Assembly (NCBI RefSeq): GCF_900110135.1
Contig: NZ_FOCO01000029.1
Span: forward strand, 1-38,832
From: Pseudorhodobacter antarcticus
Lineage (GTDB): Bacteria; Pseudomonadota; Alphaproteobacteria; Rhodobacterales; Rhodobacteraceae
Reading direction: 5' to 3'
Length of the DNA: 38,832 nucleotides
Each line of letters starts with the position of its first letter. The first letter of the stretch is position 1. The position numbers and the translations under genes are program-made. Under the pieces are notes generated by a model. That model had not been told where the DNA came from. It saw only the letters and a program-made list of their open reading frames with translations, and did no database searches. Of the stretch, positions 2,933-7,786 are shown in pieces.

Positions 2933-4627
2933 GTGTTTTTGCCGCCCCGCGCCGAGCCGATCGACATCGATCATCAAGAGGCGATCGATTTACATTACAT
3001 ACTCATAATCCTCTATGAATACGCCAGCGCAACTAAGATCGCGAAATGTGATGTCGCGCAGAAGGCCGTCAAAGGAGTAGAGGAAGAAAACGATAGGCGC
3101 CGTTCGCATGGATTTCCGGTCCTCATCAAGGTCAGATCGGCCAGGACCTATGAGCGCTGGATAGACGAACTTCTTGATCCTTACACGGTTGTCCTTCAGC
3201 GTGAAGGGCTCGCAGCCGCAAAAGCCAAATTCGACTCGGTCGAAGGCGGAATGCAGGCCAGCGAGATCGGTGGGCAAGTAATCTTTGACGCGTGGAGGGT
3301 CCACGTGGTCACCCTCGATGCGACTCGTGAACAGCTTATTAGAATGACCGCGGAACAGCGCGCGAAAGTCCGGCGAATCCGGCGCTGGGTCATTGTTGCA
3401 ATCGACGCTGCCACGAGGGTCATTTTGGGGTATGCCTTTTGTGACGCCCCGAACCAGGACGCGTCTCTGAAAGCTCTCCGGCTTTGTTTTGCGGACAAGA
3501 CCTTTCTGTTGGAAGAGGCGGGCCTGCGCAACGCCACTTGGAGTCACCGCACCCCCATCCATTTGGTGTCAACCGACTCGGGGTCGGAGTTCGGCAAACA
3601 TCCTTTTGGTGGCGCTCTGTTCGGCGAAGCGGTGCGGCGATTGACGGGGTCATTTCTGAACGCGGTCACCGGAGTCCCGGAGCTGCGTGGAACCATCGAG
3701 CGGCTTTTCCTGACCTTTGAACTGAGATGGGCCCGCTACCAGCCTGGCTGGACTGCAGGAAGCGTCGCCCAGCTCAATGACCGAAAGCCCTTTTTCGAAG
3801 CCTGTATGTCGGACGACGAATTGGAGAGAAACTTCGTGCAATTCATTGCCGACTACAATAACGCGCCGCATCGCGGGCTCAACTTCGGCACCCCCGCAGG
3901 TGAGTGGGAAAAAAAGTCCAAGGATCCCATCTTTGATCTTTCATTGCTTCCCGGACCAGCCGCGCTGCGGGAGGCTTGCGGCACATATGAGGCCGCCGGC
4001 GTTTCGGAGGCGGGCATCCGCTTCAAGGGTTTGAGCTATTCGAATGAATTCATTCGCGATCAGCGGCTGGTGAAGGGCGTGGACAGGATTGCCCAGCCCG
4101 GCGAAAAACTTGAGATCAAAATGGACCCGATGGATCTGGGTGCGATTTCGGTTCTTGCCGATGGCGACCTCATTTCCGTGCGGTGCCTTGACGACACGAT
4201 GCGCGGTAAAACACTTGCTTGGTGGACCGGTGAACAGGCGCGCCGGCGGGCAGTGGCAAAGCAAGACGCAGATCTGAGAGCTCCGGCACGTGACGAGGCG
4301 CGGAAAGCCTGGCAGGGCGAAACCGCCGCGATCGCTCAGTCGGCAGGTGTGAACGTGGGCGGCCGAACCCTTGCAGAAATCGATCAGTCTGCACGTCAGA
4401 TGAGTTTCGGAAAAGGCCGCCATGAAAAACCGTTCGTTGGCCGGGAAGAACATGTTGATCCCATCACCAGCGGCAACAAGATCGGCGTTCCGGTTGAAGA
4501 AGAAGACGTGCATTCGTCCTCTGAACCTGACGCCGCGACAGGCACCAGCAGGGCAAATCCGCTCGATAAGTTTCGTTCACGGGGCAATCGCACCCCTCAT
4601 TCTACAACAAGAAAAGGAGGCCGGTAA
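2933..4627 (+). CDS. tnsB: tnsB, 3' part: DDE transposase core of the split TnsB
   Basis: TnsB cleaves the 3' ends of the transposon and joins them to target DNA. This part carries the RNase H-like DDE core. Counting from the original start at 2390, the likely catalytic residues are D300 (IFDAW), D396 (VSTDSGSEFG) and E437 (RGTIERLF), all present. A beta-barrel and tail region follows, including a C-terminal stretch that in Tn7 contacts TnsC. The frame is the same as that of the upstream segment ending at the TAA at 2891. The nearest restart is a GTG at 2933 with no well-spaced ribosome site, so independent expression is doubtful. The stop overlaps the tnsC start by one base (TAATG). Reconstructed full length is 745 residues. 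Confidence 0.8.
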   Translation: MFLPPRAEPIDIDHQEAIDLHYILIILYEYASATKIAKCDVAQKAVKGVEEENDRRRSHGFPVLIKVRSARTYERWIDELLDPYTVVLQREGLAAAKAKFDSVEGGMQASEIGGQVIFDAWRVHVVTLDATREQLIRMTAEQRAKVRRIRRWVIVAIDAATRVILGYAFCDAPNQDASLKALRLCFADKTFLLEEAGLRNATWSHRTPIHLVSTDSGSEFGKHPFGGALFGEAVRRLTGSFLNAVTGVPELRGTIERLFLTFELRWARYQPGWTAGSVAQLNDRKPFFEACMSDDELERNFVQFIADYNNAPHRGLNFGTPAGEWEKKSKDPIFDLSLLPGPAALREACGTYEAAGVSEAGIRFKGLSYSNEFIRDQRLVKGVDRIAQPGEKLEIKMDPMDLGAISVLADGDLISVRCLDDTMRGKTLAWWTGEQARRRAVAKQDADLRAPARDEARKAWQGETAAIAQSAGVNVGGRTLAEIDQSARQMSFGKGRHEKPFVGREEHVDPITSGNKIGVPVEEEDVHSSSEPDAATGTSRANPLDKFRSRGNRTPHSTTRKGGR

Positions 4628-5637
4628 TGCCTATAGACAATAGCATCGCTGAGTTGGAGGCAGTTCGCAGGAACGAAAACGCGATGGCGGATCTTTCAAC
4701 CACATTCTTCGAGACCGAAACGTTCCAGACAATGCGCAATCGCATTTTTCGTGTTCTCGAGGCAAGAGACGCAAACCTGCGTCGCGGGCAGTTTGAACAG
4801 AAAGGCGCATGTCTGATCGGTCCCCCTGGAAGCGGAAAGTCGCGGATGGTGAAAGAGGCCATCCGGAGGTATGAAACTGCTGCAGTTGCGACTGGTGGGC
4901 GCGAGTATGGGCACGAGATTGTCAGCGCAATTGTGCCTGGAAAAGCTGGCGTGAAAGAAACCTGCCGCGCCGTTCTGAACAAGCTGGACTACCCCACCCG
5001 GGGAGAAAGGACTGAAGAGTATCTGATCGGGTGCCTGAAAACGCAACTCGAAGAACGTCGCATCGCGGCGGTTCACCTCGACGAAGTGCAGGATGCTGGC
5101 CGCTATGCCAACGACGACACCATGCAAGGATTCGTAAAGCGTTTTCGGAACCTGATGCAGGAGTCGCCGTGGCCCGTATGCTTGATCCTGACATCGACAT
5201 GTGAAGGTCGCGAATTGATCAATTTCGACAAGACGTTGTCTCGACGTCTCCGGCCGATCGAAATTCGCCCCATGACGGTAGATAGTGATGGCCTCAGTCT
5301 CAGGGAGTCGGCAGGGAAACTGGTTACCTCCGCCGGGCTTTCGCATGGCGGTCTGTTTGATGAACCTGCATTCATGCCCCTTTTCATGCATGCGGCGGCC
5401 TACCGGTTCGGCGTGGCAGTGGAAATGGTCATCGAGGCAATTGGCGAAGCACTGGCGCAAGGCCAAGATGAGGTCAATCTCGACCACTTCGCTGAAGCGT
5501 ATTTTCTTCGCGCGGACTGCGACGAAGAGATGAATCCGTTCATTTCCGATTATTGGCGCGGGATCGATACGACGATTGTTTTGGATCGGCACAAAGTTGA
5601 GAAAAAAGAGGCTAGGAAGCGCTCAAGGCGGAAGTAA
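4627..5637 (+). CDS. tnsC: Tn7-like AAA+ ATPase TnsC
   Basis: TnsC is the ATP-dependent regulator that links the target selector to the TnsAB transposase. The 336-residue protein has a Walker A GPPGSGKS (residues 65-72), Walker B AAVHLDEVQD (147-156), a sensor-1 strand ending in LILTST (about 185-190) and an arginine-rich SRRLRPIEIRPM segment typical of the TniB/TnsC family. A helical lid follows (FMPLFMHAAAYRFGVAVEMV). It starts within the tnsB stop and is followed after 30 bp by a strong terminator. No TniQ/TnsD target selector follows in this window, so the operon is TnsABC only. All key ATPase motifs are intact, unlike tnsB. Confidence 0.9.
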   Translation: MPIDNSIAELEAVRRNENAMADLSTTFFETETFQTMRNRIFRVLEARDANLRRGQFEQKGACLIGPPGSGKSRMVKEAIRRYETAAVATGGREYGHEIVSAIVPGKAGVKETCRAVLNKLDYPTRGERTEEYLIGCLKTQLEERRIAAVHLDEVQDAGRYANDDTMQGFVKRFRNLMQESPWPVCLILTSTCEGRELINFDKTLSRRLRPIEIRPMTVDSDGLSLRESAGKLVTSAGLSHGGLFDEPAFMPLFMHAAAYRFGVAVEMVIEAIGEALAQGQDEVNLDHFAEAYFLRADCDEEMNPFISDYWRGIDTTIVLDRHKVEKKEARKRSRRK

Positions 5638-5693: not shown

Positions 5694-5724
5694 CTATTCT
5701 TGCTTACTATCGGTTGAAGGTCAG

Positions 5725-5852
5725 TTGGTATGGAGATGTCGGAAGTTGGTATACGGGTGTCGGCAGGTATGTTTTCTGAGTGTCGGAGAAGATATCAAGT
5801 AATTGATTTGCAACGATAAAAATTATCGATAAGTTGGCGTTTCAGTGTCGAA
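5725..5852 (+). repeat. Tandem end repeats, probable TnsB-binding sites (transposon end 1)
   Basis: Three abutting about 21-bp units share TTGGTAT...TGTCGG: 5725-5745, 5746-5766 and 5767-5788. The third is weaker on its left side. A fourth, looser copy (TTGGCGTTTCAGTGTCGAA) begins at about 5833. All have the same direction. Arrays of about 20-bp directly repeated TnsB sites just inside the transposon end are a hallmark of Tn7-like ends. This array follows the tns operon and its terminator, so it probably marks the end distal to tnsA, with the terminus near the ACCACACA at 5852-5859. Confidence 0.6.
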
Positions 5853-5884: not shown

Positions 5885-6102
5885 GTTTTGGCGTTTTGGT
5901 CTTGTCACGCTTACGTTCCGGTCTTTCAACTCATTTATGCGGCCTTTCGTTTGAATGCCAAGGGGCTTTTACCGCCCAACGATGACTGCCTGCGCCGTGG
6001 ATTATAGAACCCGTTGATATACTGGAAGATCGTGCCTTCTGCCTGACGGCGTGTGTCCCAACGATTGCGCCAGATCAGCTCGGCCTTGATGGATTTGAAG
6101 AA

Positions 6103-6150
6103 AGCGAGGAGGATCAGGAAAGGCCCCGGTGGGGCGTTTCCCCGACGCAA
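6103..6150 (+). repeat. Palindromic insert H in IS3 (diverged, probable)
   Basis: A 48-bp stretch replaces the codons between NSMV and FFKSIK of OrfB while keeping the frame. Read on plus it has GAT next to CAGG, then GGCCCCGGTGGGG and a GGGG...CCCC stem, resembling the family loosely. It adds foreign residues at the third catalytic position. Family membership is less certain than for the other seven. Confidence 0.4.
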
Positions 6151-6189
6151 GACCATCGAATTGTCGTAACAATTGCCCTTGCCGCTCAT

Positions 6190-6226
6190 CCGCTGCCCGG
6201 CAGCGTATGTTTACATGCGCGAGAGG
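6190..6226 (+). repeat. Palindromic insert A in IS3 orfB
   Basis: 37 bp inserted after CAT: CCGCTGCCCGGCAG, a CGTATGT/ACATGCG stem, then GAGAGG. Removing it restores the IS3 reading KVS-MSGKGNCYDNS. 37 is not a multiple of three, so it shifts the frame. Confidence 0.8.
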
Positions 6227-6395
6227 GGAGACCTTGAAGCCGTGCTTCGAAAGAAGCTTCTGATAGTCATGTGAACAGTATTGCGACCCGCGATCCGTAT
6301 GATGAATGCAGCCCTTCGGTGGTTGCCGTAGGGCCACAGCCATGTCCAACGCCCGGATCGCCAGGTCCCGCTTCATGCGATTGCTGACAGCCCAT

Positions 6396-6435
6396 GCTGT
6401 TACCCGGAAGGGATTTGCGTGCAAATCACGCAGGA
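6396..6435 (+). repeat. Palindromic insert F in IS3 orfB (frame preserved)
   Basis: After CAT comes GCTGTTACCCGGAAGG, a GATTTGC/GCAAATC stem and ACGCAGGA. It is a diverged member of the family. Unlike most copies it keeps the frame: OrfB reads RRVI, then about 14 extra residues, then WAVSNRMKRDL. Confidence 0.65.
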
Positions 6436-6596
6436 CGATGACGCGGCGAGAGTAGAGGTCGAGGATGACGGCCAGATATAGCCAGCCTTCGCTGGTCCAG
6501 ATGTAGCTTATGTCACCAGCCCATTTCTGGTTCGGGCCATCCGCACTGAAGTCCTGATCCAGCAGGTTGGGCGCGATGTTGAACGTGTGATCGCTA

Positions 6597-6637
6597 TCCC
6601 CCTCTCGGCAGATTGCGTTGCAATCGCCTGCCGGGCA
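6597..6637 (-). repeat. Palindromic insert B in IS3 orfB
   Basis: On the minus strand after CAT: TGCCCGGCAGG, the GATTGC/GCAATC stem-loop and GAGAGGGG. It separates TQKYKTT from the SDHTFNIAP-type continuation, which resumes in another frame. Confidence 0.8.
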
Positions 6638-6819
6638 ATGGTTGTGGTCTTGTATTTCTGGGTCCTGACGACCTTGATGTTATTCTCGCGCATCAAACGG
6701 CCCACACGCCTGTGACCCACGCTCAACCCCAGTTCTTGCAGTTCTTCAGTCATCCTTGGCCGCCCCTAGCTTTGCAGGCTAAGCCGATGCTGTTCGCGAA
6801 TATGGGCGATAAGAACCAT

Positions 6820-6873
6820 GCCAACCACTGCCCTCTCGTGCATGTAAACATGCACGAGAGGGCAGTGGTTGGC
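6820..6873. repeat. Perfect 26-bp-arm palindrome (insert C) in IS3 orfB
   Basis: Arms 6820-6845 and 6848-6873 are exact reverse complements around a 2-base centre (AA). The inner part CTCTCGTGCATGT matches the GAGAGGG and stem portions of the other inserts, so it looks like a family member in which one half was duplicated in inverted form. It interrupts OrfB after GRPMSQ. Confidence 0.9.
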
Positions 6874-6985
6874 TCATTGGGCGGCCTCGCCACGCACGAA
6901 ACCCACGAGATGTAACCTGCATGATACGGCAGAGAAACTCGACCGGCCAATCTTCTTTCCAGACATCAATGAAGGCAAACCTCAT

Positions 6986-7028
6986 CCCGCTGCCCGGCAG
7001 TGGTTTGTGCAACAAACCATGAGAGGGG
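6986..7028 (+). repeat. Palindromic insert D at the IS3 orfA/orfB junction
   Basis: After CAT: CCCGCTGCCCGGCAGTGG with a GGTTTGT/ACAAACC stem and GAGAGGGGG. It sits immediately before the OrfB start codon (ATG complement of 6983-6985). Confidence 0.82.
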
Positions 7029-7046
7029 GCTTTGGCCTGCAAAGAA

Positions 7047-7085
7047 GCCTAACGCTGAATGTTCCACTCACCTACCGGCCAACGG
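7047..7085 (-). repeat. Palindromic insert G in IS3 orfA (diverged)
   Basis: On the minus strand after GAT: CCGTTGGCCGGTAGG, a TGAGTG/CATTCA stem and AGCGTTAGG. Removing it restores AAI-FFAGQ. It is a weaker match to the family but has the same order of parts. Confidence 0.65.
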
Positions 7086-7200
7086 ATCGCCGCCTTTTTT
7101 AGCACCTCCCTCTCCTCAAGCAGCAGCCGGACTTCTTTGCGAAGACGGGTATCTTCCTTCTCGACGTCCTCGTGCGGCCCCGACATCAGATCATCGTGTT

Positions 7201-7242
7201 CCCTTTCGGGACATTGCCATGCAATGCCCTGTCGGGCAACGG
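7201..7242 (-). repeat. Palindromic insert E in IS3 orfA
   Basis: On the minus strand after CAT: CCGTTGCCCGACAGGG, a CATTGC/GCAATG stem and CCCGAAAGGG. It splits OrfA between KWVQQH and HDDLMSG and shifts the frame. Confidence 0.82.
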
Positions 7243-7440
7243 ATGCTGCTGGACCCACTTGTTTAGCGTAGAGACGCCAACACCCAAATCCGATGGAAGC
7301 CGCGGACGCGTTAAGCCGCTGGTCGTCGCCATCCGCACAGCATCACGCCGAAACTCGTCTGTGTATTCCTTTGCCATTCCATATCTCCTTCATAGCAAAT
7401 ATTGCTCGAAAGAGACCGGAACTAAAACAGGGCAAGACCA

Positions 7441-7786
7441 TTTAGAGATGATCAACCCTTCGGAGGACATCACGGAGTTGAATGCGCGGGCCTACAGCTA
7501 TGCTGAAAAGGCCGACATCTGCTTTGACGAGCTGTCAAACATGGATTTCTTCCAGCGGCTTATTCACGGCTGCGCCTATCGCTGGGGCCTGGTGATCGAA
7601 ATGATGATCGAGGCTTTCACGATCTGCGTCCTGGCAGGGGCCACGAATGTTTCAATTAGCCATTTCGTCGAGGCGTTTTTGCGGATCTACGGTCTGGCGC
7701 CAGGGTATTCACCGTTTCTCATGCCGGACTACCGGGAAAGCTTTGACCCGGACAGACTCATGGATCTACTTGATCGCGACCGCTGA
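7441..7786 (+). pseudogene. 3' remnant of a second tnsC gene
   Basis: About 114 residues remain in frame after the IS3 end. CFDELSNMDFFQRLIHGCAY and RWGLVIEMMIEAF align with FDEPAFMPLFMHAAAYRFG and VAVEMVIEA at the end of the intact TnsC at 4627-5637, and the following SHFVEAFLR, PFLMPDYRESFD match HFAEAYFLR and PFISDYWRGID. It is therefore a paralog, not a duplicate, since the identity is only moderate. The ATPase motifs are absent. No matching 5' part lies on the other side of the IS, so the rest was deleted. A terminator follows, as after the intact tnsC. Confidence 0.75.

Follow-up and report, generated by a model that had tools for sequence, protein, structure and literature searches.

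Short palindromic repeats in and beside transposase genes of Rhodobacterales suggest a REP-like mobile hairpin

Introduction

RUP of Streptococcus pneumoniae (Oggioni and Claverys 1999) is the nearest precedent for the repeats described here. RUP is reported from more than six IS families (PMC2229807, PMC3049150); it is about 107 bp long, carries terminal repeats, uses TA as its target, is tied to IS630-Spn1, and has 108 intergenic copies. A second group, the CGTC-tagged REPs, comprises hairpins of 20–40 bp that come mostly from alphaproteobacteria and carry CGTC, TGTC, or CCTC as a tag at one end (Di Nocera 2013, PMC3733652). They have no known transposase, and their 8–9 bp stems almost always start with AT; the tail is CCA, copies are mostly intergenic, and links to transposase genes are only fortuitous (PMC3733652). 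IS that target REPs are also known, namely, IS621, ISPpu9, and IS1397 (PMC1525189). As far as the open-access texts reached, we found no report of palindromes within transposase genes of Rhodobacterales.

The DNA studied is a stretch of 38,832 nucleotides from Pseudorhodobacter antarcticus (contig NZ_FOCO01000029.1; hereafter the window). An initial annotation, made from its letters alone, described an IS3 element invaded by several copies of one palindromic repeat.

Results

Palindromic inserts in an IS3 element

The element has 28-nt imperfect terminal repeats that are 79% complementary, and these inverted repeats, the 3-bp duplication, and the rve transposase identify it as a member of the IS3 family (Table 1). 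Three intact relatives annotated as IS3, each 1231 bp long, come from Roseicitreum, Roseobacter, and Sulfitobacter plasmids. Alignment with them confirmed the annotated palindromic inserts and set their number at eight: the element of 1544 bp contains extra blocks of, in order, 42, 37, 39, 41, 34, 41, 38, and 41 nt (313 nt in total), all of which are absent from the three relatives. Removal of the blocks restores 1231 bp, the length of the relatives and close to the 1.2 kb predicted by the annotation, and the insert-free element is 91.4% identical to the nearest relative. Two relatives in the same genome, on contigs C76 and C107, are also without inserts in the parts that they retain. Some palindrome-bearing IS have spread after insertion; for example, partial copies of the window IS with the same inserts lie on contigs C24, C97, C95, and C85, and the flanks differ among the C24, C97, and C95 copies.

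Table 1. Features of the IS3 element and its inserts (positions in the window)
Feature	Position	Strand	Basis or remark
3-bp target duplication TTT, left of IS3 element	5894–5896	.	pairs with 7441–7443
IS3-family element	5897–7440	-	terminal repeats, Pfam rve/rve_2/HTH_21, alignment; transposase genes broken by eight inserts
Terminal inverted repeat of IS3 element	5897–5924	+	repeat search
Type-2 palindrome, CGTC-tagged	6106–6147	-	alignment with relatives
Type-1 palindrome	6191–6227	+	alignment, covariance model
Type-1 palindrome, degenerate feet	6395–6433	+	alignment, covariance model
Type-1 palindrome	6599–6639	-	alignment, covariance model
Perfect hairpin, 26-nt arms, 2-nt loop	6820–6873	.	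net insert 6826–6859
Type-1 palindrome	6987–7027	+	alignment, covariance model
Type-1 palindrome, degenerate	7047–7084	-	alignment, covariance model
Type-1 palindrome	7201–7241	-	alignment, covariance model
Terminal inverted repeat of IS3 element	7413–7440	-	repeat search
3-bp target duplication TTT, right of IS3 element	7441–7443	.	

Just upstream of the IS3 element, at 2933–5637, the window contains genes whose products have TniB and Mu-transposase C-terminal domains, and a 21-bp tandem repeat lies nearby at 5723–5764; together these may mark one end of a Tn7/Tn5053-like transposon.

Six of the inserts share the layout C(A/G)(C/T)TGCCCGGCAG, stem-loop, GAGAGGG, and form hairpins of about 37–43 nt with constant feet and a variable stem sequence (type 1). 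By covariance-model matches, three are on the plus and three on the minus strand, as the annotation had it. Its assignment of all inserts to one family holds for these six but not for the insert at 6106, which belongs to a second palindrome family (type 2), and the consensus that it quoted fits closely at 6191, 6599, 6987, and 7201 but not at the degenerate 6395 and 7047. Its view that the inserts reached the IS independently, not by one duplication, stands. The insert at 6820–6873 is instead a perfect hairpin, which has also taken in target sequence. This hairpin appears to be a type-1 copy in which one half, together with target flank, was copied over the other half by a template switch, and it is likely a natural example of quasi-palindrome correction.

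In 13 copies from the window and the host genome, the stem columns covary with a score of 0.362, which was reached by none of 500 shuffles, on a structure that we drew from the same 13 copies. Both sides were changed in 19 cells, and the number of pairs altered on both sides was 7, a number matched by 68 of 500 shuffles. When the copies were folded as isolated DNA, four of seven were clearly below shuffled sequences (z −1.57 to −2.33) and three were not. A scan of the inserts against Rfam found no family at threshold. Two sub-threshold matches, both on the perfect hairpin, were weak, pointed to a microRNA family, and were taken as chance.

Distribution of the palindromes

As the annotation had stated, the window holds no further copies, at least none with E up to 0.1 by the covariance model. 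The search that it had proposed of the 3.79-Mb host genome gave 46 matches within the same E limit (best E 6.8e-9), with 150 of 1784 first-look candidates scored; after subtraction of the six in the window and merging of copies of one insertion, 25 distinct sites remained. Stricter filters found matches in at least 107 of the 295 genomes of the host's family, which is a lower bound. The exact pattern occurs in at least 120 stretches of the genome collection, and 68 of the 80 listed bear Rhodobacterales names by our reading. When a sample of the whole class was searched, a slightly looser pattern matched in 11 of 289 genomes; five of these have real hairpins as judged by reading, and three of the five are in the host's family. 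In one genome outside the family, all three copies are in transposase genes (one by Pfam, two by eye). The other has two hairpins (L290, L298) with the same feet, GGGTGTGC stems, and no transposase visible nearby, which may represent another repeat or a lineage located between genes.

The sample from other genomes began with 88 pattern sites, of which 77 had a stem of at least 5 pairs, a filter that also removed a few probably real sites; 75 were left after exclusion of two with scant flank. These 75 hairpin sites come from 61 genomes and were compared with 70 control points, mostly 2.5 kb off in the same loci.

The type-2 family is a second hairpin type, and beyond the window IS and its copies, we found it in transposase genes at four sites, with the host identified by Pfam (L279, L280), tblastn (L282), or eye (L284). 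Its foot is CGTC at three of the four and CGCC at one.

Association with transposase genes

Transposase frames were defined by their link to HMM-verified transposases with the palindromes masked. Such a frame lies within 30 nt of the palindrome at 19 of the 25 own-genome sites and 47 of the 75 other-genome sites, compared with 1 of the 70 controls, so the repeat is not mostly extragenic as REPs are. Frames on both sides of the insert were found at 13 own, 26 other-genome, and 0 control sites. Within 450 nt, the numbers rise to 21/25 and 55/75, versus 1/70 in controls (Fisher p 9e-22 for 55/75 versus 1/70); for 8 of these 55, the frame is found only at a distance of 30–450 nt, as with the IS110 remnant near L109. 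IS110 as a broken host was rejected there, because the remnant stops more than 200 nt short of the insert. At two separate loci, L109 and L222, palindromes lie some 140–260 nt past the ends of IS110 gene remnants and may be part of the non-coding end of that IS.

One further own-genome site has a Mu-transpos_C_2 domain 89 nt away (Pfam). The sites C110, C35:152846, and C54 are IS3-, IS66-, and IS3-like, respectively, by eye only, and HMM scans of these three gave no transposase match. Thus, transposase sequence was recognized at or near each of the 25 own-genome palindromes: by homology within 450 nt at 21, by Pfam at 1, and by eye at 3.

Among the other-genome sites, Pfam gave IS domains at nine more, so that 64 of 75 are tied to a transposase. 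At eight of these nine, the domain fragment spans the insert or stops within 50 nt of it; L129 is linked only through HTH domains above their cut-offs. Tool-based evidence gave no transposase link at the remaining 11 (L111, L116, L122, L125, L126, L131:2289, L138, L151, L157, L169, and L178). L111, L122, and L169 resemble transposases by eye, and the palindromes at L126 and L151 adjoin ordinary genes, an SDR gene and an ornithine cyclodeaminase gene. The host sequences around the palindromes at L138 and L178 are related to each other, and a Pfam scan of the L138 fragment found no transposase.

The hosts are diverse. Profile scans covered 148 of 149 site and 137 of 139 control fragments, with repeated or overlapping references omitted. 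NCBIfam matched IS3 in 24 site fragments, IS481 in 19, IS5_3 in 11, IS1182 in 7, IS630 in 6, and IS21 in 6, where the IS3 and IS481 profiles partly match the same members; in the control fragments, IS481 (2) was the only transposase among the 25 families listed. With Pfam, rve was found in 15 site and 2 control fragments and DDE_Tnp_1 in 9 site fragments and none of the control matches listed; the control fragments had one IstB and one IS1595 domain. In all, about ten IS families carry palindromes.

Entry sites, orientation, and independence

An empty counterpart was found among the loci compared for 63 of 120 site records, some of which are copies of one insertion; a few of the alignments have small junction gaps. 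At clear empty sites, the element stands directly 3' of C(A/G)(T/C)C, mostly before G, and no target duplication was seen. This does not fit a DDE-type MITE such as RUP, marked by terminal inverted repeats and a target duplication; entry 3' of a short fixed target without duplication is as in IS200/IS605-like elements. The left-flank consensus of 106 records is C 0.68; A 0.61 or G 0.23; T 0.65 or C 0.24; and C 0.78. The type-1 foot is mostly CATC or CGTC, which is also present in the empty target.

Among 107 sites, 11 pairs coincide in position within 6 nt, and six of these pairs have different stems, C13:10992 and L142 being the least different. L106 and L135 have different stems at the identical entry nucleotide. 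The palindromes at window 6599 and L134 differ at 2 of 39 bases, and their hosts are 71–79% alike; because the palindromes are nearly the same despite this host identity, the two probably entered separately. It is plausible that the short motif alone accounts for repeated entry at one place.

Orientation relative to the gene was 38:37, read with the palindromes unmasked, so that some frames may be wrong, and insert length was not a multiple of three at 66 of 77 sites. No preference for a hairpin at the target was detected over 71 sites, in which the longest junction stem was 3.52 versus 3.63 in shuffles and the folding energy was −15.6 versus −15.9 in neighboring windows. Near-identical empty IS copies for three hosts were not found in the plasmid collection.

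At four own-genome loci, an IS110-family (RNA-guided) element interrupts a type-1 palindrome, each time at one identical base, CGAG^TATCC (L010, L011, L021, and L022, on contigs C24, C97, C57, and C13). On C24 and C97 the palindrome itself is in a window-type IS3, a three-deep nesting; NF033542 confirmed the IS110 identity for C97 only.

Search for a mover

The annotation had proposed a search for a RAYT-type (REP-associated tyrosine) transposase, and this did not bear out such a partner: Y1_Tnp gave no match in the host genome, with controls positive in 5 of 14 genomes, and was absent from 265 of the 295 family genomes. It matched weakly in one of nine genomes of the host genus. Of the 30 family genomes with Y1_Tnp, 17 are among the 107 that have the palindrome; by our count from the two lists, 90 of these 107 are without it. 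The covariance model matched in only two of the 30 loci around the family Y1 genes; in one the match has two IS remnants next to it, and in the other it is truncated where the stretch ends. No RAYT flanked by palindromes was found in the 30. The only Y1 gene between two palindromes, at L222, is an IS200, which has an IS110 remnant on one side and a gene that looks IS5-like by eye on the other. Among the sequences inspected, no longer, autonomous relative of the palindrome was noticed. The GTAG tag was absent from the palindrome foot, which is CATC/CGTC. An IS91 transposase at L145 was rejected as a parent, since the palindrome lies within its reading frame.

Discussion

We consider that the inserts are copies of a REP-like mobile palindrome that carries an HUH-like signature of single-strand entry and prefers transposase genes beyond mere tolerance, a reading to which we give a probability of about 0.57. 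The mobile unit would be a very short, non-autonomous DNA hairpin with fixed feet and a changing stem. Since a fixed-foot hairpin that enters 3' of a tetranucleotide without duplication is the signature of HUH-type enzymes, it may move as single-stranded DNA by means of such an enzyme (IS200/IS605/REP-like) acting in trans. Transposase genes would be favored over other dispensable DNA, either at entry or by retention. Most inserts have a frame-breaking length and would thereby inactivate the transposase; those palindrome-bearing IS copies that did spread presumably relied on the enzyme of intact ones. Why transposase genes are chosen does not follow from the short target motif. Since dispensability alone predicts many intergenic copies and few or none were seen here, either biased entry or strong retention seems to be required, and the data are compatible with both.

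The annotation had left preference and tolerance of dead IS DNA side by side. IS DNA is indeed favored, and tolerance alone looks too weak, because intergenic DNA is dispensable too and yet no own-genome site was found away from transposase sequence. It is nevertheless possible, although it has less in its favor, that the hairpin enters anywhere, survives in dispensable, dead, or multicopy IS genes, and then spreads across species with the IS. The eight inserts in one broken IS and the several palindrome-bearing IS that exist in several copies with the same inserts are what this would produce. Many intergenic copies would then be expected, but 0 of 25 own sites and at most 11 of 75 other sites are untied to a transposase. 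Intergenic DNA makes up near 10% of the genome, and by our rough estimate, TE genes make up about 2% of a roseobacter genome. The density given for roseobacters, about 21 TE genes per Mb (PMC3646047), likewise argues against tolerance alone, and the number of sites owes little to copying along with the IS, given 11 same-position pairs among 107 sites, a count that same-position pairs in strongly diverged hosts would escape. A later study interpreted the association of RUP and IS with pseudogenes as a sign of tolerance (PMC3049150).

The form and size of the hairpin, the tetranucleotide at its 5' foot, and the lack of target duplication would also suit REP elements moved by a RAYT, but this is improbable given that Y1_Tnp is missing from the host and from 90 of 107 palindrome-bearing family genomes, that there is no GTAG tag, and that none of the 30 Y1 loci resembles a flanked RAYT. 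An RNA-level element, either resembling an intron or bypassed, so that a working transposase is still made, would account for the spread of insert-bearing IS copies and for precise entry into coding sequence; we regard it as very improbable, because the two orientations are equal (38:37 overall, 3:3 in the window), and known self-splicing RNAs are far longer than 37–43 nt. The annotation had itself pointed out that the same sequences in intact relatives would make the segments ancestral. They are absent in three of three, the retained parts of the two same-genome relatives are without them, and the same palindromes occur in unrelated IS families, so the inserts are not ancestral, and an original IS sequence lost by the relatives is scarcely credible.

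A bolder version of the preferred reading, a REP-like hairpin with a preference for transposase genes, is that a trans-acting machinery recognizes transposase genes and drops frame-breaking hairpins into any IS family, as a bacterial brake on IS. This machinery would use two or more families of hairpins that enter at CATC or CGTC. We think this unlikely, and the eight inserts in one dead IS speak against selection of each for silencing.

Short bacterial palindromes are usually viewed as extragenic; the present family was found mainly in or beside IS genes, which belong to about ten IS families and come from a sample of some 60 genomes. Such a location calls for some rule of targeting or some filter by selection, which present accounts of REPs and MITEs lack. 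The question raised by RUP, whether mini-elements curb IS, is reopened in organisms in which it can be counted, and the precise entry sites make a search for the enzyme tractable.

Compared with known systems, the palindromes are like RUP, which is reported to inactivate transposase genes, in being a short non-autonomous repeat that occurs in several IS families, and they raise the same question of targeting or tolerance. Unlike RUP, the type-1 palindrome is a single hairpin of 37–43 nt, makes no target duplication, has no known partner IS, and lies mainly in or beside transposase genes. The type-2 family may resemble the CGTC-tagged REPs in that it starts with CGTC at most sites, but the palindromes differ from those REPs in stem and tail, by a comparison of feet and stems, and in location. 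With GTAG REPs and their RAYTs, they share the form of a short hairpin repeat with a tetranucleotide foot (PMC3733652); they differ from these in that they have no GTAG tag, no RAYT was found nearby, and they are not mainly extragenic. The IS110 elements inserted into host-genome palindromes recall IS621, ISPpu9, and IS1397 (PMC1525189). Those three are cases of an IS that enters a palindrome, whereas the main finding here is a palindrome that enters IS.
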